Below the pieces are notes generated by a model. It did not search any database and was not told the DNA's origin. It was given only the letters and a program-made list of their open reading frames with translations. Below, piece after piece: positions 47,683-60,695 of a stretch of DNA of 64,000 nucleotides. How positions within the stretch are numbered: position 1 is the stretch's first letter; every line of letters starts with the position of its first letter. The stretch is from Rothia halotolerans (lineage in GTDB: Bacteria > Actinomycetota > Actinomycetes > Actinomycetales > Micrococcaceae). Both the position numbers and the translations under genes were made by a program. The stretch covers positions 124,001-188,000 of the forward strand of contig NZ_NOIU01000004.1 in the NCBI RefSeq assembly GCF_004136635.1, given 5' to 3'.

Positions 47683-48387
47683 TCAGAGAGTATGACGACG
47701 CCGCAGCGTCCTGCCGACCTCCTTGAGCCAGTCCGCGCGCGATCCCACGACGGGCACCTCCTGCTTCGTCGGCTTCCTGCTCGACGCGAAGGGCGAGCGG
47801 GAATGGAAGAGGAGCGGCACATGCTTCCGCGTCGCCCCTGCCGAACAGAGGGGAAGCGCACTGAGCAGCTCGCTGTTGCCGATGCCGAGGTAGAACGGGA
47901 AAGCCGCCGGGAACGCCTTGCGCCCGAGGTAGGTGCTGAAGGCCGGTGAGGCCAGCGCCTGGTCGATCTCCTCGGTGTGCCCCGGGCAGGTGATCCTGAC
48001 CAGGAACTCCGCGTCCGCGATGTAGGTGCGGTTGACGATGGAGGTCCCGCTCTGGGCATCGGGGGTGAACACGAGCGCCTTGTCCCCGCGGGCCTTGCGA
48101 CCCTGTGCGAGCAGGATGCGCCGACGGAACTCCTCCTCCTGACGGCGGGGGTTGATGGTCTGGTAGTCGTCCATCAGGCGGCCGCCCCGGTCCTCCCGGA
48201 CCGTGAAGTCCACCTCGTCGAGCCATGCCGGCCACTCCCCGCGGCGGGCGCCGAGGGCTCCGGCTACCAGGCCCCGCAGCGCCGTCGTCGTCGGAAGCCG
48301 TTCGGTGCGGACGATGTTCCCCGTGACGGCCGGCCCCGCCCATGACTGGATGGGGCCGGCCAGCCGGATGTAGACGGAGTCGCTCAT
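47683..48387 (-). CDS. cas5e: Cas5e, Cascade subunit
   Basis: The type I-E Cas5 (CasD) subunit, 234 residues, which holds the 5' handle of the crRNA at the foot of Cascade. The RAMP start MSDSVYIRLAGPIQSWAGPA and the early TERLPTTTALRGLVAGALG are typical, followed by a Cas5-type C-terminus. The ATG at 48387 overlaps the cas7e stop by 4 bp (ATGA); an ATG 12 nt further upstream is less likely. It is the last gene of the leftward operon and ends just before a strong hairpin. Confidence 0.93.
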   Translation of the reverse strand: MSDSVYIRLAGPIQSWAGPAVTGNIVRTERLPTTTALRGLVAGALGARRGEWPAWLDEVDFTVREDRGGRLMDDYQTINPRRQEEEFRRRILLAQGRKARGDKALVFTPDAQSGTSIVNRTYIADAEFLVRITCPGHTEEIDQALASPAFSTYLGRKAFPAAFPFYLGIGNSELLSALPLCSAGATRKHVPLLFHSRSPFASSRKPTKQEVPVVGSRADWLKEVGRTLRRRHTL

Positions 48388-49448
48388 TTGCGGATCCATC
48401 CGACGACCCGCTGGACGAACGCGTCCTTGTCCACCGGTGTCAGCTCTCCGAAGCGGCCCTCGAGGCCCGCGTAGGTGCCGGTCAGCGCCTCGGTCGGGCC
48501 GAAGTTCCCGGGGTCGAAGCTGCGGGCCTGTGCGTACTGCTCACCCAGACGGTCGATGGTGGTCTCGAGGTAGCCGCCCTCTTCAGCGTTCTGGACCGGG
48601 GTCTCGAAATCGTATGCGGTCCGGTAGCGCTGCTCCTCGGCGAGCACGAGCGCGGGCTGCACGTAGGGGGCGGAGCTGTGCTCCTTGCCGCGGGGGAGCC
48701 CGTAGAGGATCGCGGTGATCAGCTCGCCGAGCCTCTCCTCGGCATCGGGGAGGTCGAAGCCGGACCAGCTCTCCTTCAGCTGCTCCTTGTCGATGGTGAC
48801 GGTGCGGTAGAAGACGCCGTTGACGTACTGGGAGACGCCGAGGAAGGTCGCGCCGGTCTGGCGCTCCCGCTCCTTGACGTCGTCCACCGTCGAGAAGTAG
48901 TCCGTGTCGATGCTGACTCGGTGGGTGGTGACGCCGGGGGAGACGCTCAACGCGGCCTCGGTTCCCTTCTCGGGAGCCGCTGCGAACATACGCCCGAAGG
49001 CAGCGATGGCGAGGGATCCGGAGCGGCCCGGCTGGACGAAGTCGGCCGAGGGCTTGTCGGACGCGTCCAAGGCTGCCTGCGCTGCGGTGGTGATCTCCTC
49101 GCTGCTCAGCCACGTCGAACGATCGGCCCCGTCGTCGGTGCTCTCATTCTTGGTGAGCGCGCCGATGATCTTCTTGGCCTGTTTCTCCACGGCGGTCTTG
49201 TCCGCCGCGGGATCGATGGTCAGGGCGATGTCCGCAACCTCCGCCGCGATCTTGCCAGAGCGGATGCTGCGGTCTTCGAGGCTGGCGTTCTCGTAGGCGG
49301 TGCGGATGCCGCGTTTGATGGACTGCGAGGAGTGCAGGGCCCGGAGTGCCCCGCCCTGCATGACGCGCTTGGGGACGCCGCCGTCGTCGCGATTGAGGTT
49401 GGAGTAGGGGACGACGGTGACAAGGCTGATGGTCAGGTGACGTGCCAT
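48384..49448 (-). CDS. cas7e: Cas7e (Cse4/CasC), Cascade backbone
   Basis: The backbone subunit of type I-E Cascade, 354 residues, six copies of which normally coat the crRNA spacer and bend out every sixth base. Recognisable parts are the start MARHLTISLVTVVPYSNLNRD, then PKRVMQGGALRALHSSQSIKRGIR, and later GATFLGVSQYVNGVFYR. Length fits the family. It follows cse2 by about 35 bp and overlaps cas5e. Confidence 0.94.
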   Translation of the reverse strand: MARHLTISLVTVVPYSNLNRDDGGVPKRVMQGGALRALHSSQSIKRGIRTAYENASLEDRSIRSGKIAAEVADIALTIDPAADKTAVEKQAKKIIGALTKNESTDDGADRSTWLSSEEITTAAQAALDASDKPSADFVQPGRSGSLAIAAFGRMFAAAPEKGTEAALSVSPGVTTHRVSIDTDYFSTVDDVKERERQTGATFLGVSQYVNGVFYRTVTIDKEQLKESWSGFDLPDAEERLGELITAILYGLPRGKEHSSAPYVQPALVLAEEQRYRTAYDFETPVQNAEEGGYLETTIDRLGEQYAQARSFDPGNFGPTEALTGTYAGLEGRFGELTPVDKDAFVQRVVGWIRK

Positions 49449-49483: not shown

Positions 49484-50158
49484 TCAGGAAGGGTCGGACT
49501 GATCGAGGGGGTCTTCCGCAGTGCCTGCGGCCTCGGGGGCTGCGGCATAGCCGGAGTAGAAGTCCTGGAGGACACGGCGTCGAACCTGCGCAGAGGCCTC
49601 GGAGACGCCGTTGCCCCAGCGCAGGAAGAGCCAGTAGAGGGATGCATAGTCCATGTCGGGGATGCGGGCGCCGAGGCCGGAGGCCATCTGGAGGAGACGC
49701 CGTACCGCGGTGATGGCCTCCTCATGATCCTGGGTGTGGAGGTAGGCGATCCTGCTCGCCACCATGCCGGGGCGATCCGGATCGAGGGACGGCGTCCCCC
49801 CGGACCTCGCCGCCTCGAGCTCGTAGGCCCAGCGGCCCAGGGACTTGCGGGCGGGTGTGCTCCGCTTCCTGTGTTCGCCCTCCGGCCGTTCCGCCTCGGA
49901 GATTTCCCGGCGAGGCGAGAACGGGGGCACGGCCGTGAACTCCGCAGCGAGTGCCGCGATCCGGAGCAGGACAGTGCGGCTGGTGCCATCGGCCGGATTC
50001 GCCAACCGAGGGATGACGTAGGGGTAGGCGTAGTGTTCGGTGGTCGGCGAAGCTCCGCGACGGATCTCCGCCCTGGCCCGTCGATAGCTCTCGTGCTCCC
50101 GACGCCGGAGGATCTCGTGGATCAACGCGAGTTCGGGACTTCTTTGCTGCTCGGTCAT
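49484..50158 (-). CDS. cse2: Cse2 (CasB/Cas11e), small Cascade subunit
   Basis: The small, mainly helical Cascade subunit, 224 residues, normally present as a dimer that stabilises the R-loop. Typical segments are SLGRWAYELEAARS and DYASLYWLFLRWG, with a helical C-terminus. The ATG at 50158 overlaps the cse1 stop by 4 bp, so an upstream in-frame ATG inside cse1 is not used. The C-terminal tail is acidic and longer than in E. coli CasB. Confidence 0.9.
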   Translation of the reverse strand: MTEQQRSPELALIHEILRRREHESYRRARAEIRRGASPTTEHYAYPYVIPRLANPADGTSRTVLLRIAALAAEFTAVPPFSPRREISEAERPEGEHRKRSTPARKSLGRWAYELEAARSGGTPSLDPDRPGMVASRIAYLHTQDHEEAITAVRRLLQMASGLGARIPDMDYASLYWLFLRWGNGVSEASAQVRRRVLQDFYSGYAAAPEAAGTAEDPLDQSDPS

Positions 50159-51855
50159 CGTTCTTCTCGTTCCATCTCGTGGGGGTCGTCTGTCTCGTCG
50201 TCGTTGCCGATGAAAGTTCTGATGGTCCACAGAACGCGACGTTGGATCCGGGACCGGACGAAGGCCGCGCGGCCGGGCATCTGTTCGCGGTGCGGGGCGA
50301 GGATCTCGTCGAATGCGGCCATGCAGGCCTGCTGCGCTTTCAGGACGGTGGCATCCGGTATGAAGTGCTGCTCGCCGCTTCCTTCGCGGATGAACTCCTC
50401 GTACACGGGGGTGATGTGACGCCAGAAGGCCGTAGACGCGTCGCCGCGACGGGCCTCGAGGTTGTCGAAGACGACGGCACCGTGGCCTTGCGCCTCGCGT
50501 TTGGCGTCTCCGGCGTTGCGGCGCCGGAAAGGGGCACAGACGATGCCGTGGAGCTGCCGGATCAGGCCCGCGTGCCCTATGACGGCAATTTGCGTCTCAT
50601 CGTCGAAGCCGAAGGTCCACTGGTCCTCGCTGGGCTCGAAGATCTGGGAGGCGCGGATGCTGGGGGAGGACGCAGTACCCTCGACCTGGTGGCGGGCGAA
50701 GGACGGAGTGATCCTCTCCGGCAGATCGAGGCGGTCGGAGGCGCTCGCAGCGGCGGCTTCCACCTTGCCCTCGGCGACCCATTCGACGGCCAGGTCCACG
50801 GCGTCGCGGCCGAAGTCCAGGCGCTGCGCCTTGAGCTCGCCGTTCTGGTTCGGGAGATACAGATAGAAGGGATCCTCGGTGTTGCGCTGGTCCCACCAGT
50901 TCTTCCGGCTCTGCTTGTCCTGGCCCATCGACGGCACATACCACTCCTCCGGAATGCCGCCGGTACGGGCGCCGACGAGGTCGGTCCCCTCCCATGCGGC
51001 GGCCACCGTGTTGGAGCTCCACGTGGCGCGCCAGAGCGGATGCTCGGTCCCCTCGGAAGGGTTGGTGGAGAGGGCGCCGGTGCGGTCGGCCCAAGCGGGA
51101 AGGCCGGTTCCCTCGACCCAGGTGCGGGGAACGGAGAAGAGGAGCGTTTTCAGCAGCGAATCGCCGCGCCAGAAGATCTCGGTGGCCGCGAACCCCTTGC
51201 CCGGATAGCGGAAGCCCGGGGCGCCCATGGCGCATTTGTCGCCATCGTAGGCGTTGTTCCCCGCCATCGAAAAGTAATGGTAGATGACGAGGGCCAGGGT
51301 CGCCTCCTCCACCGGCAGTCTGCCCGGCTGCGCGACGGAGAGGTGCCAGAAGTCCTCCCCGGCGTCGGAGGGCATAGCGGGGGAGAGCTTCTTGACCGGC
51401 TGCTGGCCTGGCCCGAGGGCTCGTGCGGTGTCCTTGGGGCCGCTCGGGGGAACGGGCGGACGCTGCATGAAGGGCTGGGTCGCGTCGAAGAGGTTCGCGC
51501 CCCTCTGCAGAGTGGCCAGCCCCCGGTCGACGGCGTCTTCGGGCAGTCCATGCCTGAGCAGATGCGGTGCGGGATTGTGTCGTCGCCTCATGGTGTCATC
51601 TGGCTCACATTCGCGCAGGATGGAGGGGATGAGGGAGGCGAGGAAGCGGTACTGGGCGGAGAGCGCATACGCAGGCAGGGACAGGTCGAGGTCGACGCCC
51701 GACTCATGCGCCATGAGGAGGGCATCGCGAGGAGTCGCCGAGCGCCGGACGCGTGGGGTCGGGGACTTTTCATCCGCGTGGCTGGTGTCTGAGCAGCTCT
51801 TATCGGGGACGCTCAGCTGAATCCAGCTGGTGTCTATCAGGGCATTGGTTCCCAC
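50155..51855 (-). CDS. cse1: Cse1 (CasA/Cas8e), large Cascade subunit
   Basis: The large subunit of Cascade, 566 residues, which reads the PAM, starts unwinding and recruits Cas3. Characteristic parts are LIDTSWIQL at the start, LFDATQPFMQRPPVP, AGNNAYDGDKCAMGAPG, and a C-terminal four-helix bundle. The GTG at 51855 has AGAGGAGG about 5 nt upstream. The proximal promoter probably lies at about 51911-51939, and the mini-array at 51967-52057 lies directly upstream in the same direction. It is the first gene of cse1-cse2-cas7e-cas5e. Confidence 0.93.
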   Translation of the reverse strand: MGTNALIDTSWIQLSVPDKSCSDTSHADEKSPTPRVRRSATPRDALLMAHESGVDLDLSLPAYALSAQYRFLASLIPSILRECEPDDTMRRRHNPAPHLLRHGLPEDAVDRGLATLQRGANLFDATQPFMQRPPVPPSGPKDTARALGPGQQPVKKLSPAMPSDAGEDFWHLSVAQPGRLPVEEATLALVIYHYFSMAGNNAYDGDKCAMGAPGFRYPGKGFAATEIFWRGDSLLKTLLFSVPRTWVEGTGLPAWADRTGALSTNPSEGTEHPLWRATWSSNTVAAAWEGTDLVGARTGGIPEEWYVPSMGQDKQSRKNWWDQRNTEDPFYLYLPNQNGELKAQRLDFGRDAVDLAVEWVAEGKVEAAAASASDRLDLPERITPSFARHQVEGTASSPSIRASQIFEPSEDQWTFGFDDETQIAVIGHAGLIRQLHGIVCAPFRRRNAGDAKREAQGHGAVVFDNLEARRGDASTAFWRHITPVYEEFIREGSGEQHFIPDATVLKAQQACMAAFDEILAPHREQMPGRAAFVRSRIQRRVLWTIRTFIGNDDETDDPHEMEREER

Positions 51856-51906
51856 GGGGCCTCCTCTGTCGGGTGGACTCCACGGTAAGCGAAAAGAAGG
51901 GGGTGG

Positions 51907-51926
51907 TCAACTTATAGCCAACTGTT
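51907..51926 (-). promoter_or_regulatory. Candidate Cascade target and -10 region of the cse1 promoter
   Basis: On the minus strand, AAC (51926-51924) is followed by AGTTGGCTATAAGTTGA (51923-51907). The mini-array spacer starts AGTTGCCTATAGGTTCA. The two agree at positions 1-5, 7-11, 13-15 and 17 and differ at 6, 12 and 16, after which similarity ends. The -10-like TATAAG (51916-51911) of the leftward cse1 promoter is inside the matched stretch. The AAC takes the PAM position of type I-E. A Cascade bound here would cover the cse1 promoter without a full R-loop. Confidence 0.7.
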
Positions 51927-51966
51927 TGAAAAATAACAGATAATGAGTAGCCTGGATGGTGGCTCA

Positions 51967-52057
51967 TCTTGTACCCCCACTGTTGTGGGGAAGGGCCACG
52001 AATCTATGCATGAACCTATAGGCAACTTGAAGTACCCCCGCTCCGCGCGGGGAAGAA
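51967..52057 (-). CRISPR. Solitary crRNA-like mini-array (two degenerate repeats, one spacer)
   Basis: Read on the minus strand, a 5' repeat (about 52057-52028) ends in the handle GTACTTCA, then a 32-nt spacer (52027-51996), then a 3' repeat (51995-51967). The repeats start 61 bp apart, exactly the period of the main array. Both keep TTCCCC and GGGGGTA, and their hairpins covary with the main repeat: CCCCGT/ACGGGG in the array, CCCCGC/GCGGGG in the 5' repeat, CCCCAC/GTGGGG in the 3' repeat. The spacer seed matches the cse1 promoter. It looks like a processed guide RNA for autoregulation rather than a decayed immune array. Confidence 0.8.
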
Positions 52058-52069
52058 GCGCAGGCATCA

Positions 52070-52075
52070 ATTCTA
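52070..52075 (-). promoter_or_regulatory. Possible -10 of the mini-array promoter
   Basis: TAGAAT on the minus strand lies about 13 nt before the first mini-repeat, so a transcript would start near 52063 and enter the repeat at once. The -35 region is weak (TGGTGTC, 17-18 nt upstream). The same transcript could continue into cse1, making the mini-array its 5' leader. A short promoter box of this kind is suggestive only. Confidence 0.4.
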
Positions 52076-52111
52076 TGTCCGCGTTCGATCGAGACACCAG
52101 GAGGATGCCCG

Positions 52112-52807
52112 ATGAACCCCCCGACCTACCTGATCCGCTACCCGGTCCACGAGGCGCTCCTGCGAACGCAGGAGAACAAGCCCGAGGGTGGCTGGGACGT
52201 GGACGATCCGCGCTTCCGGCACCGCGCCGTCATGGGTCTCTTCGGAGATCTCGGAGAGGATCACCCGCGTCAGGATTCACGCATCCTCTTCCGTCTGGAC
52301 CATACGCCGGGACTTCCGCCCTATTTCCTGGTGCAGGCGGCCGTTCCGGTGGAGGCGCCGGATCTGGCGGGGCGTCTGGACGTCCGTGAGGCAGATCTCT
52401 CGGCACCGGTTGAAGGGACGGCCGTGGCCTTCCGGCTGGCCGTTAACGCGATCCAGCGCCGGACCAAGGCTTCGGAGAGGAGGGCCAAGGGTGAGAGGAC
52501 GATCACGCCGATTCCCTTCGATCACGACGATGCGGCTCCGATGGATCTGCCTCGGATGAGCGAATGGGTGGCCCGGAAGCTCGAGGGCGCGTTGGCGGAC
52601 GTCGCGTTGAACAACCACCAGCGTCAGGTCTTGGGCGCCGACAGACGGGGCCGGAAGACCGGAGCGGGGCCGACCGTCCAGGTCGACACCGTGGACGGCG
52701 TGGGTTACGTCGAGGATCCCGCGAAGCTGGAGCGGTTGCTGCGCGAGGGCGTCGGGCGGGCGAAGTCCTACGGGTGCGGTCTGCTGAGCATCCGGCGGAT
52801 CCCGTGA
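52112..52807 (+). CDS. cas6e: Cas6e (Cse3/CasE), crRNA endonuclease
   Basis: The ribonuclease that cuts the repeat hairpin and stays bound to the 3' end of the crRNA, 231 residues. It has two RAMP folds, the likely catalytic His37 in RFRHRAVMGLFGDLG, and the terminal glycine-rich loop VGRAKSYGCGLLSI. A clear AGGAGG lies 7 nt before the ATG. It starts the rightward operon; its stop overlaps the GTG of cas3. It should also process the mini-array, whose repeats keep a foldable hairpin. Confidence 0.93.
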   Translation: MNPPTYLIRYPVHEALLRTQENKPEGGWDVDDPRFRHRAVMGLFGDLGEDHPRQDSRILFRLDHTPGLPPYFLVQAAVPVEAPDLAGRLDVREADLSAPVEGTAVAFRLAVNAIQRRTKASERRAKGERTITPIPFDHDDAAPMDLPRMSEWVARKLEGALADVALNNHQRQVLGADRRGRKTGAGPTVQVDTVDGVGYVEDPAKLERLLREGVGRAKSYGCGLLSIRRIP

Positions 52808-55431
52808 AGCGGACGCACGAGGCGCTGTGGGCCAAGCAGCATGGTCTAGAGGAGCCCTATCCACTCCTTGCGCATCTGCTGGACACCGCCGTCGTCGCAC
52901 GCCAGCTCTACCGGCACTGGCTGCGCCCGGGGCTCCGAGGGCTGCTCGAGGAAGGGCTCGGCGAGAACGCCGAGCGGCTCGTGGCATGGGTCGCCGGAGG
53001 GCACGACGTCGGCAAGGCGTCTCCGGTCTTCCAATGGCAGCCGCATGCTCACGGTCCCGAGTGGGACCGGATCAGGGCCCGGCTCCTGGAAGCCGGCGAC
53101 TATACGTTCGATCCCGTCAAGGGGCTGCAGGGCCGCGCGCAGATCGAGGGAGCCTCCCGCCACGAGCAGGTCACCGCGAAAGCTCTCCATCCCGGGGTGT
53201 TCAGTTCCGCAGAGGAGGCTGAGGATCTGTGGAAGGTCCTGCCGGCTATGGGGCATCATGGCCGTTTCGTCGTTCCCTTCCTGTACGGGGCAGGAGCGAC
53301 GCTGAAAGAGAAGAAGATCGAGCAGATGCACGAGAAGGGAGGCTGGGTCACCGCCCAGCGGGATCTTCTCGGCATCCTCAGGGAGAGTCTTGGCCTGGAA
53401 GAGGCAGATCTTCCGGAGAGCGCCCCGAATGCCGTGACCATCCTCCTCTCCGGGCTGACGGTGCTCGCGGATCGGATCGCCTCCGGGACCGACTGGGTGA
53501 TGGAGGCCCAGGGGCTCATGGCGTCCGGGGAGCTGAGCCTCCAGGAGCCGGGAGCGTGGCTGACCAGCCGGGAGGAGAGCGCGCTGCGTCGCATCCGGCA
53601 GACGGTGGGGATCTACTCGGGGTGGGAGGACGAGGAAGAGGCGAAGCGGGCGATCCTCGGAGAGTTCGAGCCCCGCCCTCTCCAGGAGGAGGCGCTGAAG
53701 GCGGGGCGAGGCCTGTGGAACGTCATGGTCCAGACCGGGGGAGGCAAGACGGAAGCTGCAGCGCTGCGGCATTCGACGGCGGAGGAGCGGCTGATCTTCC
53801 TGCTTCCCACCCAGGCGACGTCGAACGCCCTGATGCGTCGGATCCAAGGATTCTTCCGCGACAACCCCAACGTGGCGGCCCTCGCCCACGGCCTGGCCTC
53901 CACGGAGGACTTCTACAGCACTCCCGTCACGGTGGTCCAGGACGGGGAGGGCGAGCCGGACAACGGCGGTCTCTATCCTGCCGAGTTCGTCAGGTCCGGC
54001 AGCTCCAGGCTGCTGGCCCCCGTCTGCGTGGGGACCGTGGACCAGGCGCTGATGGGCTCGCTTCCCGCCAAGTGGACGCACCTCCGGCTCCTGGCGCTCG
54101 CCAACGCCCATGTGGTGCTGGATGAGGCGCACACCATGGATCAGTACCAGTCACAGCTGCTCCTCCCGTTGCTCCGGTGGTGGGGGACCACGGGGACTCG
54201 GGTGTCCTTGCTGACTGCCACGCTGCCGGCCTGGCAGCGGAGGATGTTCGTGGAAGCCTATACGCAGGAAACCGTTTCGGCGGCCCCCTGCTTCCCCTCC
54301 GTCGAGAACTTCGCCTCTGAGTCGCCCTCCCGGGAGCGCACCGATCTGCCGGCTCGGGAACATGCCATCTCGTGGGAGATGAGCGAAGCTCCAGCCGATG
54401 AACTCGTCGACTCCCACATCGAGTGGGTCCGCAACATGCGGGAGCAGTGGCCCGAGGCGCGCATCGGCGTCATCTGCAACACGGTGGCCCGCGCGCAGGG
54501 CGTCGCTGAGACCCTGGCTCACGAGGAGGAAGACGTAGTCCTCCTGCACTCGCGGATGACCGCCGAGCATCGACGCCGCAACGCCACGATGCTGGAAGAG
54601 CGGATCGGCTCGGGGAGGAGGGGGCGGGCCCTCACCGTCGTCGGGACCCAGGCGATCGAAGCGTCCCTGGACATCGATCTCGATCTCCTGAGCACCGAGC
54701 TCTCGCCGGCGCCCTCCCTGATCCAGCGGGCGGGACGCGTGTGGAGGCGGGAGGATCCCGAGAGGAAGCTCAGGATTCCGGGGGCTCAGGGGATGTCTAT
54801 TCGTCTTCTCCGGATCGCCGATGCTGATGAGTACAAGGCCAAGCCGTACTTCAGGGCCGAGTTGGACAGGACGTGGGAGTGGCTCTCAGCGACGCGCACG
54901 CTGAGGGTGCCGCAGGACTGTCAGGACTTTATCGATGGTTCCGCCGTCACCTTCGAGAACATCCTGGATCCGACCGAGGCCGATCTCGAGAAGTACGCGG
55001 ACGACGCCCTTCGGTCGCAGAAGGGGCGAATCTCCGCCCACGATATGGGCTGGATCCTGGATCCATGGTGCGACCTCGGAACCTTCACGAGTTTGACGAG
55101 GGCTGAGAAAGACGTATCAGAAGAGGCCGTGGAGAGGCGGACGCGCCTGATCGACCAGGAGCTCCGGCAAGTGATCCTGTGCGGGGACCCGGCCGTTGTG
55201 CCGGGGGCATGGCCGGGCACGGTGGAGGAGCTGAAACGGCTGAAGGGTCGCGATCAGGAGAAGATCAGACAGGCCCTGCGGTCCTCGGTGGCTCTGCCAG
55301 CCAGTCACCGGGAGATCTACGCACGTCTTGAGCCGTTGCGGGATGCCGAGTCCGTGCTGAGCAGATACTGGGTGCTGGAAACTGCCGAAACTCATTACGA
55401 TCCGGTCTTCGGGCTCCGGAAGAACGCATAG
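52804..55431 (+). CDS. cas3: Cas3, HD nuclease-helicase
   Basis: The target-degrading effector, 875 residues. The N-terminal HD nuclease domain shows H24 in LLAHLLDTA, HD67-68 in AGGHDVGK, H120 in GASRHEQ and HH151-152. The superfamily 2 helicase follows, with Walker A TGGGKT at 311-316, DEAH at 440-443 and TATLPA near 465, then the RecA2 motif QAIEASLDIDLD and QRAGRVWRR (motif VI), and a C-terminal domain. The GTG at 52804 overlaps cas6e (GTGA). All key residues seem intact, so interference should be active. Confidence 0.94.
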   Translation: MKRTHEALWAKQHGLEEPYPLLAHLLDTAVVARQLYRHWLRPGLRGLLEEGLGENAERLVAWVAGGHDVGKASPVFQWQPHAHGPEWDRIRARLLEAGDYTFDPVKGLQGRAQIEGASRHEQVTAKALHPGVFSSAEEAEDLWKVLPAMGHHGRFVVPFLYGAGATLKEKKIEQMHEKGGWVTAQRDLLGILRESLGLEEADLPESAPNAVTILLSGLTVLADRIASGTDWVMEAQGLMASGELSLQEPGAWLTSREESALRRIRQTVGIYSGWEDEEEAKRAILGEFEPRPLQEEALKAGRGLWNVMVQTGGGKTEAAALRHSTAEERLIFLLPTQATSNALMRRIQGFFRDNPNVAALAHGLASTEDFYSTPVTVVQDGEGEPDNGGLYPAEFVRSGSSRLLAPVCVGTVDQALMGSLPAKWTHLRLLALANAHVVLDEAHTMDQYQSQLLLPLLRWWGTTGTRVSLLTATLPAWQRRMFVEAYTQETVSAAPCFPSVENFASESPSRERTDLPAREHAISWEMSEAPADELVDSHIEWVRNMREQWPEARIGVICNTVARAQGVAETLAHEEEDVVLLHSRMTAEHRRRNATMLEERIGSGRRGRALTVVGTQAIEASLDIDLDLLSTELSPAPSLIQRAGRVWRREDPERKLRIPGAQGMSIRLLRIADADEYKAKPYFRAELDRTWEWLSATRTLRVPQDCQDFIDGSAVTFENILDPTEADLEKYADDALRSQKGRISAHDMGWILDPWCDLGTFTSLTRAEKDVSEEAVERRTRLIDQELRQVILCGDPAVVPGAWPGTVEELKRLKGRDQEKIRQALRSSVALPASHREIYARLEPLRDAESVLSRYWVLETAETHYDPVFGLRKNA

Positions 55432-55439
55432 GAGGATAC

Positions 55440-56378
55440 ATGGCGTATTCGGATGAGGCCGTGGCCTTCTCCACGCTCCCCGTGGGACATCAGGTGCGGT
55501 TGGAGGACCGCGTATCGTTCCTGTACATCGAGTACTGCGCTGTACGGCAGGACCGCACCGGCGTCGTCGCCATCGGGGAGGACGACGCCGCGGAGAAGGT
55601 GGTGCGGCGTCGTGTGCAGATGCCCGTGGCGGGGATATCGGTTCTCATTCTGGGGCCGGGGACGAGCATCACCCAGCCTGCGATTACGTCCTGCACTCGG
55701 TCGGGGGTCACGGTGCTGTTCGCAGGTGGAGGCGGGGTGCCGGCCTACGCCCATGCGACGCCGTTGACCTCTTCGGCGCGGTGGGCCATCGCCCAGGCTC
55801 GCCTTGTCGCTCAGGAGAAGCACCAGAGGATCGCGGCGATGGTGTTCTACAAGAAGCAGCTGGGCATGGAGCATATGCCCGGCGGCTCTATCGCGACCAT
55901 GCGCGGCCTCGAAGGGCGGGCGATGAGGAACCTATACCGGGAGATGTCCAAGAAACACAAGGTGGAGAAGTTCAAGCGCAACACCGATTCCGATGACCCG
56001 GTGAACATCGCTCTGAACATCACGAACTCCATCCTGTACGGGTGTGCTGCATCCGCCTGTGCGGCCATCGGGATCAATCCGGCACTGGGCATCATCCACC
56101 GGGGGAATGCGCGATCGCTGCTCTACGACCTGGCGGACCTCTATAAGCCGACTATCAGCATTCCGATCGCCTTCGCCGCCTCGAAGGAGGACGATGTGCC
56201 TACTACGGTTCGGAAGGCTGTACGGGCCGAACTGGTCCGACAGGGGGTCCTCAAAGGAATGCTCGCTGCGCTCATGGAGGTCCTTACCCCTTATCTGCCG
56301 GCGCGTGATGACGACAGGTTGGTGGCGGATACCGAGGATGAAGCCATTGGGCATACCCAATACGGAAAGGAGGAGTAG
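55440..56378 (+). CDS. cas1e: Cas1e, spacer integrase
   Basis: The integrase that inserts new spacers together with Cas2, 312 residues. Metal ligands E158 (GLEGR), H220 (GIIHRGN) and D230/D233 (YDLADLYKP) match the E141/H208/D218/D221 set of E. coli Cas1. The ATG has AGGAGG 4 nt upstream and the gene starts 8 bp after cas3. It is followed by cas2 after 5 bp. Confidence 0.94.
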   Translation: MAYSDEAVAFSTLPVGHQVRLEDRVSFLYIEYCAVRQDRTGVVAIGEDDAAEKVVRRRVQMPVAGISVLILGPGTSITQPAITSCTRSGVTVLFAGGGGVPAYAHATPLTSSARWAIAQARLVAQEKHQRIAAMVFYKKQLGMEHMPGGSIATMRGLEGRAMRNLYREMSKKHKVEKFKRNTDSDDPVNIALNITNSILYGCAASACAAIGINPALGIIHRGNARSLLYDLADLYKPTISIPIAFAASKEDDVPTTVRKAVRAELVRQGVLKGMLAALMEVLTPYLPARDDDRLVADTEDEAIGHTQYGKEE

Positions 56379-56383
56379 GAATC

Positions 56384-56698
56384 ATGTTCGTCGTCGTATC
56401 GGCCAGCGCGATCCCGGAGCATCTGCATGGATATCTGAGCCGTTTTCTGTCCGAGGTGTCCACAGGGCTGTACGTCGGAAATCTCTCGCCCGGGGTTCGC
56501 GATCATCTCTGGGGACGGTGCGATGAAGCTGTGAAGGAAGGGGCTGTGACGATGATCTGCGGAGCTCCGAAGCACGAGCAGGGATTTGAGCTTCGGACCT
56601 CGGGACCGCAGCGTCGTCCCATCGTGGAGCTGGACGGGGTGCAGCTGGCGACGACCGCCGCACCGAAAGATGCCCAAAATCGGCCGACGAGCCGATAA
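56384..56698 (+). CDS. cas2e: Cas2e
   Basis: The 104-residue Cas2 of type I-E, which bridges two Cas1 dimers in the adaptation complex. The start MFVVVSASAIPEHLHGYLSRFL and VSTGLYVGNLSPGVRDHLW fit the Cas2e (CRISPR-associated ygbF) family. Its stop codon lies only 18 bp before the first CRISPR repeat, so the array leader and promoter must overlap the end of this gene. Confidence 0.93.
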   Translation: MFVVVSASAIPEHLHGYLSRFLSEVSTGLYVGNLSPGVRDHLWGRCDEAVKEGAVTMICGAPKHEQGFELRTSGPQRRPIVELDGVQLATTAAPKDAQNRPTSR

Positions 56699-56716
56699 AA
56701 TGCCTAGTCAGTTGGT
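56673..56716 (+). promoter_or_regulatory. CRISPR leader/promoter embedded in the end of cas2
   Basis: Only 18 bp separate the cas2 stop from the first repeat. A -10-like TAAAAT (56696-56701) contains the cas2 stop codon, which would start transcription about 9 nt before repeat 1. The AT-rich tract CCAAAATC (56674-56681) is the only -35/leader-like sequence. The usual AT-rich 60-200 bp leader is absent, so adaptation signals must lie within the cas2 coding sequence. Confidence 0.5.
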
Positions 56717-59700
56717 CTCTTCCCCGTACGCACGGGGGTATTTCCTTTTTCTGCTGCTTCTCCAAGTGGATATTGATCTCTTCCCCGTACGCACGGGGGT
56801 ATTTCCGTGGAAGCCGTCCCGAAGTCCGGGGCGACCATCTCTTCCCCGTACGCACGGGGGTATTTCCCGAAGGAGCTCACCCAGTGAACATCTCCTGCAC
56901 TCTTCCCCGTACGCACGGGGGTATTTCCGGGGGCCTTTTTGAATATGGTGGGGATCAGAACTCTTCCCCGTACGCACGGGGGTATTTCCGATTACCACGA
57001 AGGGATGATCCGCCACGCCTGCTCTTCCCCGTACGCACGGGGGTATTTCCGCCGAGTGGACCAAGCACAACATGTGGAGTGGCTCTTCCCCGTACGCACG
57101 GGGGTATTTCCCTGAGCTCCGGATCGGCGACCAGGTTGCCGATCTCTTCCCCGTACGCACGGGGGTATTTCCTCGGTGGTCGCGAAATTGTTGCCGAGCT
57201 CCACCTCTTCCCCGTACGCACGGGGGTATTTCCTTACCCTGGTCGTCCTTCACGCGCAGGTCCGGCTCTTCCCCGTACGCACGGGGGTATTTCCCGGCGA
57301 CCCTCTGTTTAAGGGTCACAGCGCCCCTCTTCCCCGTACGCACGGGGGTATTTCCCGATCTCCCACCGGAGACCACCATTGAGACCACTCTTCCCCGTAC
57401 GCACGGGGGTATTTCCATGGTTCAGCCCTCCTTCACGGTGAGCTCGGTCTCTTCCCCGTACGCACGGGGGTATTTCCTCATGGCAGCAACCACCAAGACC
57501 CGCAAGAACCTCTTCCCCGTACGCACGGGGGTATTTCCCAGTCCCCCTCGCCACTGTTCCGCGGCGTGTACTCTTCCCCGTACGCACGGGGGTATTTCCA
57601 TCGAGCAGACCATGACCCACAAGTAGACATGCTCTTCCCCGTACGCACGGGGGTATTTCCGTCATCGTCAAGGGCAAGGTCATCAAGATCCTCTCTTCCC
57701 CGTACGCACGGGGGTATTTCCGATATCAAGGGCGTGCTGAGCCAGGCCGGGCGCTCTTCCCCGTACGCACGGGGGTATTTCCGACGAAGGAATAAGCGCT
57801 CATGATCCACGGAACTCTTCCCCGTACGCACGGGGGTATTTCCTGATCGAGCAGTGGGAAGCCACCCATGCCGGCCTCTTCCCCGTACGCACGGGGGTAT
57901 TTCCATCCGGGCCGGGAAGTCCTCGGTGCTGATCGCCTCTTCCCCGTACGCACGGGGGTATTTCCCGCGGAGAAGCGTCTGGCGCGGATCCAGTCCGCTC
58001 TTCCCCGTACGCACGGGGGTATTTCCAGGAGTCTAAATGGATGAGCTGACCGCGATCACTCTTCCCCGTACGCACGGGGGTATTTCCCCCATCCCAAAAC
58101 CGGCCATGCTGCTGTGGGGCTCTTCCCCGTACGCACGGGGGTATTTCCGAGTTCGTGGTCTCCAAGGCGGCCCGGCGGAACTCTTCCCCGTACGCACGGG
58201 GGTATTTCCGAGTTCCCGCGGCTGCGGTTCCGCACGGTGATCTCTTCCCCGTACGCACGGGGGTATTTCCGGTAAGAGCACCGTTCGGTACACCACGGTC
58301 CGCTCTTCCCCGTACGCACGGGGGTATTTCCAGCAAGGCGTCCGGTTACAACTGGATCCGCTGCTCTTCCCCGTACGCACGGGGGTATTTCCCTCGGCGG
58401 GAGCGCGACCGGCTTCCAGTGGCACTCTTCCCCGTACGCACGGGGGTATTTCCGATCTCGGGCCCCTGCGCACGATGATCGAGGACTCTTCCCCGTACGC
58501 ACGGGGGTATTTCCGTCGCAAGGATCCTCGGATACCGCGACGCCGCCTCTTCCCCGTACGCACGGGGGTATTTCCGTGCTCTCCGGCATGGCCGCCTCCG
58601 CCGAAGACTCTTCCCCGTACGCACGGGGGTATTTCCTTGAGGTCCTTGGGGGCGGGGATGGAGATCTTCTCTTCCCCGTACGCACGGGGGTATTTCCCTG
58701 CGCATGACCCAGGAGCAGCAGAAGGTCGACTCTTCCCCGTACGCACGGGGGTATTTCCGCGTTATTACCGCTGTCGTCCTTGTACGCAGTCTCTTCCCCG
58801 TACGCACGGGGGTATTTCCCGAACCATCCATGCCAGGCGCCGGAGGCGTCCCTCTTCCCCGTACGCACGGGGGTATTTCCTGCTCGGCAGCCTGGATCAG
58901 TTCCCTGGGCATCTCTTCCCCGTACGCACGGGGGTATTTCCCGGGTCGGGCAGGTCGCCGAGGTCAACGTCGGCTCTTCCCCGTACGCACGGGGGTATTT
59001 CCTGCTCGGCAGCCTGGATCAGTTCCCTGGGCATCTCTTCCCCGTACGCACGGGGGTATTTCCCGGGTCGGGCAGGTCGCCGAGGTCAACGTCGGCTCTT
59101 CCCCGTACGCACGGGGGTATTTCACCTGGTGAAGGAGCAGTGGGACAAACTTAAAGCTCTTCCCCGTACGCACGGGGGTATTTCCACGTGCAGCCGTGCT
59201 GCGTCCGGGTGCTGCCTCTCTTCCCCGTACGCACGGGGGTATTTCCCTGGACCCCCGCGATCTGCTGATCCGCGATCCCTCTTCCCCGTACGCACGGGGG
59301 TATTTCCAGCATCGGCTGGTTCATGGCGGTTCCTTTCTGCTCTTCCCCGTACGCACGGGGGTATTTCCCACCGACCGGCGGTACAAGGGCTTCCGCCCGA
59401 CTCTTCCCCGTACGCACGGGGGTATTTCCTCCTTCGTCCCGGGGCGCAGGCCCATCTGAGCCTCTTCCCCGTACGCACGGGGGTATTTCCGTGCACTCGG
59501 CGATGCGGGTGATGACACGCTTCTCTTCCCCGTACGCACGGGGGTATTTCCCACCGACCTGCCCACCATCCGCAACCAGCAAACTCTTCCCCGTACGCAC
59601 GGGGGTATTTCCGGAGACAGCCTGCTCGACGGGGAGCATGTAGGCTCTTCCCCGTACGCACGGGGGTATTTCCTTCTCCTGCAGGTCCGGCCGCAGGTAA

Positions 59701-60695
59701 TGGCCCTCTTCCCCGTACGCACGGGGGTATTTCCCTCTGGGTGCGGGCCTCGGATTCCAAGGTGCACTCTTCCCCGTACGCACGGGGGTATTTCCGAACG
59801 CGCTCCACGTCGTTGGCCGAGACGATCCTCTTCCCCGTACGCACGGGGGTATTTCCGAAAGCGTGGAGATCGTTCAGGAGGGCAAGGCCTCTTCCCCGTA
59901 CGCACGGGGGTATTTCCCGTGGGTGGAGACGATGTTGCGGCTGTCCAGGCTCTTCCCCGTACGCACGGGGATATTTCCGAGGACGTCACGGTCTGGGGCG
60001 GCGTGAAGGTCTCTTCCCCGTACGCACGGGGGTATTTCCGCGGAACGCGGAATCCCTCGCGTTGGACATGGCTCTTCCCCGTACGCACGGGGGTATTTCC
60101 TGGCCACGCGCTGCTGAGCGCAGCTCACGCGTCTCTTCCCCGTACGCACGGGGGTATTTCCAGCCACTTGCCGGATATCTTGATCGTGCGATCCTCTTCC
60201 CCGTACGCACGGGGGTATTTCTCACGACCGAGCCGCGGACGGCCTCGATGACGCCTCTTCCCCGTACGCACGGGGGTATTTCCCTGCCGGCGGCGTGCGG
60301 GGAGTTCTCGGACCGCTCTTCCCCGTACGCACGGGGGTATTTCCCTCCTTCACCCCAGAGGCCGTGATCGTGCAGGCTCTTCCCCGTACGCACGGGGGTA
60401 TTTCCACGTTGTGCCGGCGGTTCGAGTTCGAGGCCTTCTCTTCCCCGTACGCACGGGGGTATTTCCGACGGCATGACCGTGGCCTGCTCCCGGGAGGCCT
60501 CTTCCCCGTACACATGGGGTATTTCCGTCCACGCGAAGCGGCACATCGTCCGCCTGGACTCTTCCCCGTACGCACGTGGTTATTTCGGGGGACTGGTCAG
60601 TCTGCCACGGCCCGTTCACCTCTTCCCCGTTTGTGGGATCATGGCCGGTGTTGCTCTGAATCCCGGGCCTTCTCTGCCTACGCGGGGATATTTCT
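56717..60695 (+). CRISPR. Type I-E CRISPR array, 62 regular repeats plus decayed tail
   Basis: The 29-bp repeat starts CTCTTCCCCGTACGCACGGG and ends GGTATTTCC. It forms the stem CCCCGT/ACGGGG with loop ACGC and leaves the 8-nt handle GTATTTCC. Repeat starts fall on a strict 61-bp grid from 56717 to 60438 (62 repeats), so spacers are all 32 bp. The crRNA direction is rightward, from cas2. Variant repeats (ends TTTCA at 59096, GGGGATATTTCC at 59950, TTTCT at 60194) lie in the distal half. Repeats at 60499, 60559 and 60620 and a remnant near 60667 are degenerate, which marks the old end. A two-spacer block at about 58881-59002 is duplicated in tandem at about 59003-59124. Confidence 0.98.

Follow-up and report, generated by a model that had tools for sequence, protein, structure and literature searches.

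A putative cas-regulating mini-CRISPR between the divergent type I-E cas operons of Rothia halotolerans and its relatives

Short guide matches that repress without cutting are described for scaRNA and known for tracr-L, both of which work with Cas9 in type II CRISPR systems. For types I-B, I-E and V-A, the primary description of cas-regulating RNAs (CreR) is reportedly that of Liu et al. (2023; doi 10.1016/j.chom.2023.08.005). In the accounts drawn on here, a CreR is a crRNA-like guide that originates from a mini-CRISPR, is partly complementary to a cas promoter and brings about Cas autorepression (PMC13131331, PMC12737573, PMC12948488), which is released through competition from crRNAs or by inhibitors (PMC12737573). 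Such autorepression is reported for type I-E as well as for I-B and V-A (PMC13131331), whereas the original prediction for the locus described below had mentioned reports for other subtypes. CreA, a related guide of I-B haloarchaea, is described as requiring nt 1-5 and 7-11, with the 6th and 12th freely mutable, and as needing Cascade (PMC8501985). Here, we analyse a type I-E locus of Rothia halotolerans that, with a probability which we put at roughly 0.9, is a CreR locus whose guide would let Cascade repress its own cse1 operon without cutting.

The type I-E locus and its mini-array

The window, that is, the whole 64-kb stretch of DNA analysed, contains a type I-E system comprising two divergent cas operons and one main CRISPR array (Table 1). 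The leftward operon (cse1, cse2, cas7 and cas5) begins with the GTG start codon of cse1 at 51855, and the rightward one (cas6e, cas3, cas1 and cas2) begins at 52112. The scores of Cse1 and Cas6e, as well as that of Cas7 (short by one bit), fall below the NCBIfam cut-offs, and these proteins were therefore named also by position. The repeat of the main array, CTCTTCCCCGTACGCACGGGGGTATTTCC, runs on the plus strand from 56717. Within this array, a pair of adjacent spacers is present twice (58852-59095), representing a tandem duplication. The stop codon of cas2 and the first repeat are only 18 nt apart (56698-56717), which means that either the leader extends into the end of cas2 or there is none. 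A second small array, with four degenerate copies of the same repeat type by eye, lies near 187093 on another contig, C7, of the same genome (L065) and adjoins genes that, also by eye, resemble an ABC transporter ATPase.

Between cse1 and cas6e, a gap of 256 nt holds a minus-strand mini-array with degenerate repeats and one spacer. Its coordinates bear out the original description of a 32-nt spacer between two repeat-like hairpins spaced as in the main array: the two handle ends are 61 nt apart, equal to the main-array unit. The 5' handle reads GTACTTCA in the mini-array versus GTATTTCC in the main array. In type I-E systems, Cas6e cuts within the repeats to yield crRNAs, and the guide previously predicted at 52035-51975 agrees with the recomputed positions of handle and repeats. 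With regard to a possible processing by Cas6, the mini-array has the handle and the inverted repeats. The mini-array differs from a canonical immunity array, with its near-identical repeats and foreign-derived spacers, in that neither of its repeats is identical to the other or to the main repeat, and its spacer matches the cell's own promoter region. A consensus scan, run without a control, gave a candidate -10 upstream of the first repeat and no clear -35 to go with it. The minimum-energy fold of the precursor did not show the classical first hairpin, and Rfam gave no match at the gathering score over 51800-57000.

Table 1. Features of the cas locus, the mini-array and its putative target, in window coordinates
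Feature	Position	Strand	Remarks
cas5e	47683-48399	-	TIGR01868
cas7e	48384-49448	-	TIGR01869, 177 vs cut-off 178.05 bits
cse2	49484-50230	-	TIGR02548
cse1/cas8e (large subunit)	50155-51855	-	TIGR02547, E 1.6e-6, 27.3 vs cut-off 70.05 bits; operon position
Predicted cse1 -10, TACCGT	51887-51882	-	17 nt after -35
Predicted cse1 -35, TTGACC	51910-51905	-	Guide positions 14-19
Target site, first 15 nt of protospacer 51923-51892	51909-51923	-	Mismatched to guide at 6 and 12 only
PAM of target, AAC	51924-51926	-	
Candidate opposite promoter (cas6e-cas3-cas1-cas2)	-35 TTGAAA 51926-51931; -10 TAGCCT 51948-51953	+	Spacing 16; p 0.08
Repeat-like 2, 29 nt	51995-51967	-	CCCTTCCCCACAACAGTGGGGGTACAAGA; inverted repeat CCCCACAACAGTGGGG
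Spacer (guide), 32 nt	52027-51996	-	AGTTGCCTATAGGTTCATGCATAGATTCGTGG
Repeat-like 1, 30 nt	52057-52028	-	TTCTTCCCCGCGCGGAGCGGGGGTACTTCA; 3' end is the 8-nt 5' handle (52035-52028)
Predicted mature crRNA-like guide, 61 nt	52035-51975	-	From positions and I-E processing (Cas6e cut in both repeats)
Candidate -10 of mini-array, TAGAAT	52070-52075	-	12 nt before repeat 1; consensus scan without control
cas6e	52112-52807	+	Below NCBIfam cut-off (39 vs 45.2 bits)
cas3 (ORF)	52564-55431	+	
cas1e	55440-56378	+	
cas2e	56384-56698	+	
Main CRISPR array	56717-60587	+	64 repeat copies found, 61-nt unit, final two copies degenerate

The guide match upstream of cse1

Upstream of cse1, the guide, AGTTGCCTATAGGTTCAT, is matched by a target of the same strand that starts at 51923, reads AGTTGGCTATAAGTTGAC and is preceded by the PAM AAC. 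Within positions 1-18, the two differ at 6, 12, 16 and 18, so that 13 of the first 15 nt agree, as originally observed. The match exceeds chance: when the downstream region was dinucleotide-shuffled 20,000 times, an unmasked best-of-15 score of 13 was equalled in six cases and exceeded in none, and the combination of PAM and site, with up to two mismatches allowed, has a single occurrence in the window, whereas 100 shuffles yielded none. Across the 3.04-Mb genome, AC followed by AGTTGNCT occurs once, as does AC followed by AGTTGNCTATA, which was used to scan for other targets; because the backward control of the shorter AGTTGNCT pattern also gives a single occurrence, no selection is claimed from these genome-wide counts.

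The PAMs of the system's immunity spacers agree only in part with that of the mini-array target. Six distinct main-array spacers are matched at 28-31/32 in a congener (G024), where the PAM is AAC in two cases, GAC in two and GAG in two. The seventh (at 57083) is matched at 93%, over 29-30 nt, by one phage record and one plasmid record, in which the PAM place reads, by eye, AAA and AAG, respectively; three further plasmid records match in the same search at 60-80%. PAMs ending in AC thus accompany four of the seven distinct spacers, with AAC/GAC the commonest type, two placings at 24-25/32 in one locus (GAC and GTG) having been left out as likely chance matches. Several of the sequences matched at 28-31/32 by window spacers lie within about 8 kb of each other on contig 5 of G024 (L062, L067, L071 and L077), and this cluster might be a prophage.

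Guides and targets among relatives

Searches for Cse1 were positive in 3/39 relatives, 4/35 congeners, 9/396 genomes sampled from the order, 22/213 from a single family, 5/393 from the class and 14/239 from the genus to which Corynebacterium sp. MSK297 (G953) belongs. The window's own genome is counted in the totals for relatives, congeners, order and class, and beside it the class-wide sampling gave weak hits only (E 6.6e-7 to 5.5e-4). Following the addition of 16 named Cse1 loci and the removal of second hits and of distant or partial ones, 35 non-redundant Cse1 loci with upstream DNA were retained. In 24 of these, a mini-array carries a spacer that matches the region upstream of cse1 in the same genome; counted over 16 nt, 21 different seeds are represented. 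The start of the spacer matches at 11-15 of 15 nt, and a divergent Cas6e homologue adjoins the mini-array in every one of the 24. The handle pattern G.GGTRNTTCN, drawn up after the first loci had been read by eye, fits all positive loci and is also present in four of the 11 negative ones.

These matches were compared with several controls. Among the first 18 positives, which this test covered, the score was reached by none of 300 shuffles in 17 and by 0.3% in L045 (Varibaculum). When the spacers of 19 loci (the 18 positives and Mobiluncus) were set against the regions of other groups, none of 328 comparisons exceeded 11/15 (10 were at 11; mode 9), and scores of 8-11/15 were obtained on the opposite strand of each spacer's own region. 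The weakest positive, L045, scores 11/15, no better than the best cross control, and rests on its 10/10 seed and its PAM. The case for co-evolution is illustrated by two Corynebacterium loci, L015 and L016, in which spacer and site carry identical substitutions at guide positions 7 and 10; within positions 1-16, the site is otherwise changed at position 12 only. Comparison of seed and promoter site in relatives had been proposed as a check on the original prediction; judged by it, guide and target change together in 24 of 35 loci, over the 21 seeds.

In Cascade, every sixth base is described as flipped out (PMC5904413), so that positions 6 and 12 are those that selection should ignore. Over the 21 distinct seed pairs, mismatches fall at position 6 in 14 and at position 12 in 13 (27/42 cells), compared with 3/252 cells at the other positions from 1 to 14 (Fisher 2.9e-24), in line with the original view that differences at 6 and 12 are not functional mismatches. 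Position 15 is mismatched in 4/21, and positions 16-32, which in short guides extend into the second repeat, in 261/357 cells, that is, at chance level. Position 6 matches in 7/21 seeds here, compared with 45%, above chance, at E. coli off-target sites (PMC5904413). The AAC originally noted at the PAM place has counterparts throughout: although the PAM was not used in scoring the matches, it ends in AC at all 24 sites (GAC in 13, AAC in eight and TAC in three).

Guide lengths were estimated on the assumption that the second repeat begins 5 nt ahead of its stem, as in the main repeat; the values for L045, L099 and L101 come from a second estimate, which otherwise differs by about 1 nt, and by six at L097, where the stem was misread. 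The spacer is 32 nt in the window and ~31 nt in L002, whereas it is ~27 nt in three Actinotignum-type loci, ~19-21 nt in fourteen others and ~15-16 nt in five (the Arcanobacterium pluranimalium locus and four of genus g55), so that 22 of the 24 guides are, by estimate, shorter than 32 nt (~15, 20 or 27). Pairing beyond 15-17 nt would thus be prevented either by mismatch, as in the window, or by a short guide. That the lengths step by ~6 nt is only a suggestion, the values being estimated and mostly clade-bound.

The feature is lacking in 11 of the 35 loci, eight of which retain an adjacent cas6e. L010, L011, L036, L037, L043, L044 and L105 have cas6e and no matching mini-array, and L046 (Mobiluncus) has cas6e and repeats with no significant match (7/10, p 0.51). 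For L038 (Actinotignum timonense) and L102, no Cas6e hit was obtained in the upstream DNA examined. An unbiased search for AC-preceded pairs gave 9-10/13 in the 11 negative loci versus 11-13 in four positives run alongside. A single repeat, with no Cas6e hit beside it, is found in C. silvaticum (L100, identical to L022), whereas L101 has two repeats with a spacer between them; the C. silvaticum guide appears to have been lost through repeat-repeat recombination in a decaying locus. Upstream of the distant cse1 of L053, a repeat-like hairpin is flanked, by eye, by the similar sequences TCATCGCGAT and TTATCGCGAT, possibly another guide with one repeat.

Proposed regulation and related systems

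On the cse1 strand of the window, the best promoter is TTGACC-17-TACCGT (p 0.02, 300 mononucleotide shuffles), which would place the -35 on guide positions 14-19. TATAAG, which lies just upstream of this pair, had been read as the -10 within the matched site; we reject this placing and with it the notion of a guide that blocks the -10, the site overlapping the -35 TTGACC. Among the 24 positive loci, consensus matches on the cse1 strand reach p <=0.05 in eight, with values of up to 0.81 in the rest, so the placing of the -35 at the target site is only suggestive for many relatives.

We propose that Cas6e would cut the minus-strand transcript of the mini-array to give a crRNA-like guide, which would be loaded into Cascade. 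Following recognition of the AAC PAM, guide positions 1-5, 7-11 and 13-15 would pair with the cse1 promoter over its -35, and the bound complex would block transcription of cse1-cse2-cas7-cas5. Since pairing would stop at ~15-17 nt, the R-loop would be too short for cutting by Cas3, and the operon would be released when immune crRNAs compete for Cascade or when Cascade is inhibited. The binding without cutting that was originally proposed fits what is described for an E. coli target mismatched at 19-32, which showed robust Cascade binding, no interference and no priming (PMC5904413). That Cascade represses its own genes through this guide is strongly supported, at the level of sequence, by co-variation in 24 of 35 loci, by the AC-ending PAMs at 24/24 sites and by the near-confinement of mismatches to positions 6 and 12.

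The reach of this regulation is less certain. The original prediction extended repression to cas6e-cas3-cas1-cas2, and the bound complex may also cover an opposite promoter of that operon: in the window, the candidate -35 TTGAAA touches the target PAM (p 0.08), and among the 15 positives from Rothia and Actinomycetaceae, 10 have their best -35 on that strand starting 2-4 nt away from target base 1, within the PAM or adjoining it (p 0.01-0.08 for eight of the ten, 0.30-0.36 for L031 and L032). In the remaining five, by contrast, the best opposite -35 is further away, and no such promoter near the PAM was found in the nine Corynebacterium positives (scores 5.5-7.5, p 0.32-0.96), although these keep both the guide and the cse1 site. 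The extension is thus plausible, with modest support, and a narrower, compatible form of the CreR reading, in which only the cse1 operon is controlled and cas6e-cas3-cas1-cas2 is transcribed, unrepressed, from a promoter elsewhere, falls slightly short of even odds. If the opposite promoter does drive cas6e, the guide gene would be antisense in the leader of that operon. It is conceivable, if rather doubtful, that shortened guides yield smaller Cascades that bind without a complete R-loop and that the antisense guide gene in the cas6e-cas3 leader also makes the switch self-reinforcing; derepression would then entail cas6e-cas3 antisense transcription through the guide gene, from a -35 that abuts the target PAM.

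Readings other than CreR fare considerably worse. An antitoxin guide of the CreTA kind, repressing a promoter that drives a small toxin RNA, would share the seed logic (1-5 and 7-11) and a cas-adjacent mini-CRISPR (PMC8501985). However, only 26 nt lie between the end of the predicted -10 (51882) and the cse1 start (51855), leaving no room for a toxin gene in the window, and the site is upstream of cse1 in all 24 positives; no toxin gene driven by the target promoter was observed beside the mini-CRISPR, and we regard this reading as very improbable. Even less credit is due to a functionless leftover of self-targeting, in which an old spacer derived from the promoter, or a local duplication, would have persisted. 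The degenerate repeats and the partial match are what such a relic would show, but drift at every position would be expected of a neutral duplicate, whereas spacer and site change together over 21 seeds, with mismatches almost only at unpaired positions and PAMs ending in AC. Equally implausible is that the inverted repeats do no more than terminate transcription or form a leader structure between the two operons: they are GC-rich and intergenic, as such elements would be, yet the handle, the seed match, the PAM and the pattern at positions 6 and 12 would be left unexplained.

If the CreR reading holds, these genomes alone indicate that a CRISPR effector has probably been under dedicated guide control over long evolutionary times, and the rule that every sixth base is exempt from Cascade pairing becomes visible, independently of experiment, in the changes that have been tolerated. 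The short natural guides suggest how a cell may protect its own promoter against cleavage by a DNA-cutting complex, and a seed match that masks positions 6 and 12, combined with a PAM, provides a recipe for finding such guides in other type I systems.

Among known RNAs, scaRNA and tracr-L share repression by a short match without cutting, and differ in effector and RNA and in lacking a Cas6-cut mini-CRISPR. A type I-E immunity crRNA shares the 61-nt unit, the handle and the commonest PAM, whereas the mini-array has degenerate repeats, a single spacer and an evolutionarily kept partial match to its own promoter. CreA/CreT of I-B haloarchaea shares degenerate repeats, the 1-5/7-11 seed, free 6th and 12th positions and a PAM beside the site, but its target is described as the promoter of a toxin RNA (PMC8501985), whereas here it is the cas operon itself. 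The closest likeness is to CreR, which, as described, includes type I-E and combines a crRNA-like guide, a mini-CRISPR, partial complementarity to a cas promoter and autorepression. The window locus has a one-spacer mini-CRISPR near cas genes, and its spacer is partly complementary to the cognate promoter (13/15, with AAC, a seed and the predicted cse1 -35); to these we add our own, unpublished criterion, complementarity that appears to be kept while the sequence changes (24/35 loci, 21 seeds). In the portions of the CreR review literature consulted, we found no mention of drift at positions 6 and 12 across many natural guides or of short natural I-E guides, an absence that is not proof. As a putative member, the locus joins an already reported class in a subtype for which guide-based autorepression is already reported; its characteristics here are hosts from Rothia, Actinomycetaceae and Corynebacterium, a mini-array placed where the cse1 and cas6e operons diverge, guide spacers ranging from ~15 to 32 nt and 21 seeds that appear to co-evolve with their targets.
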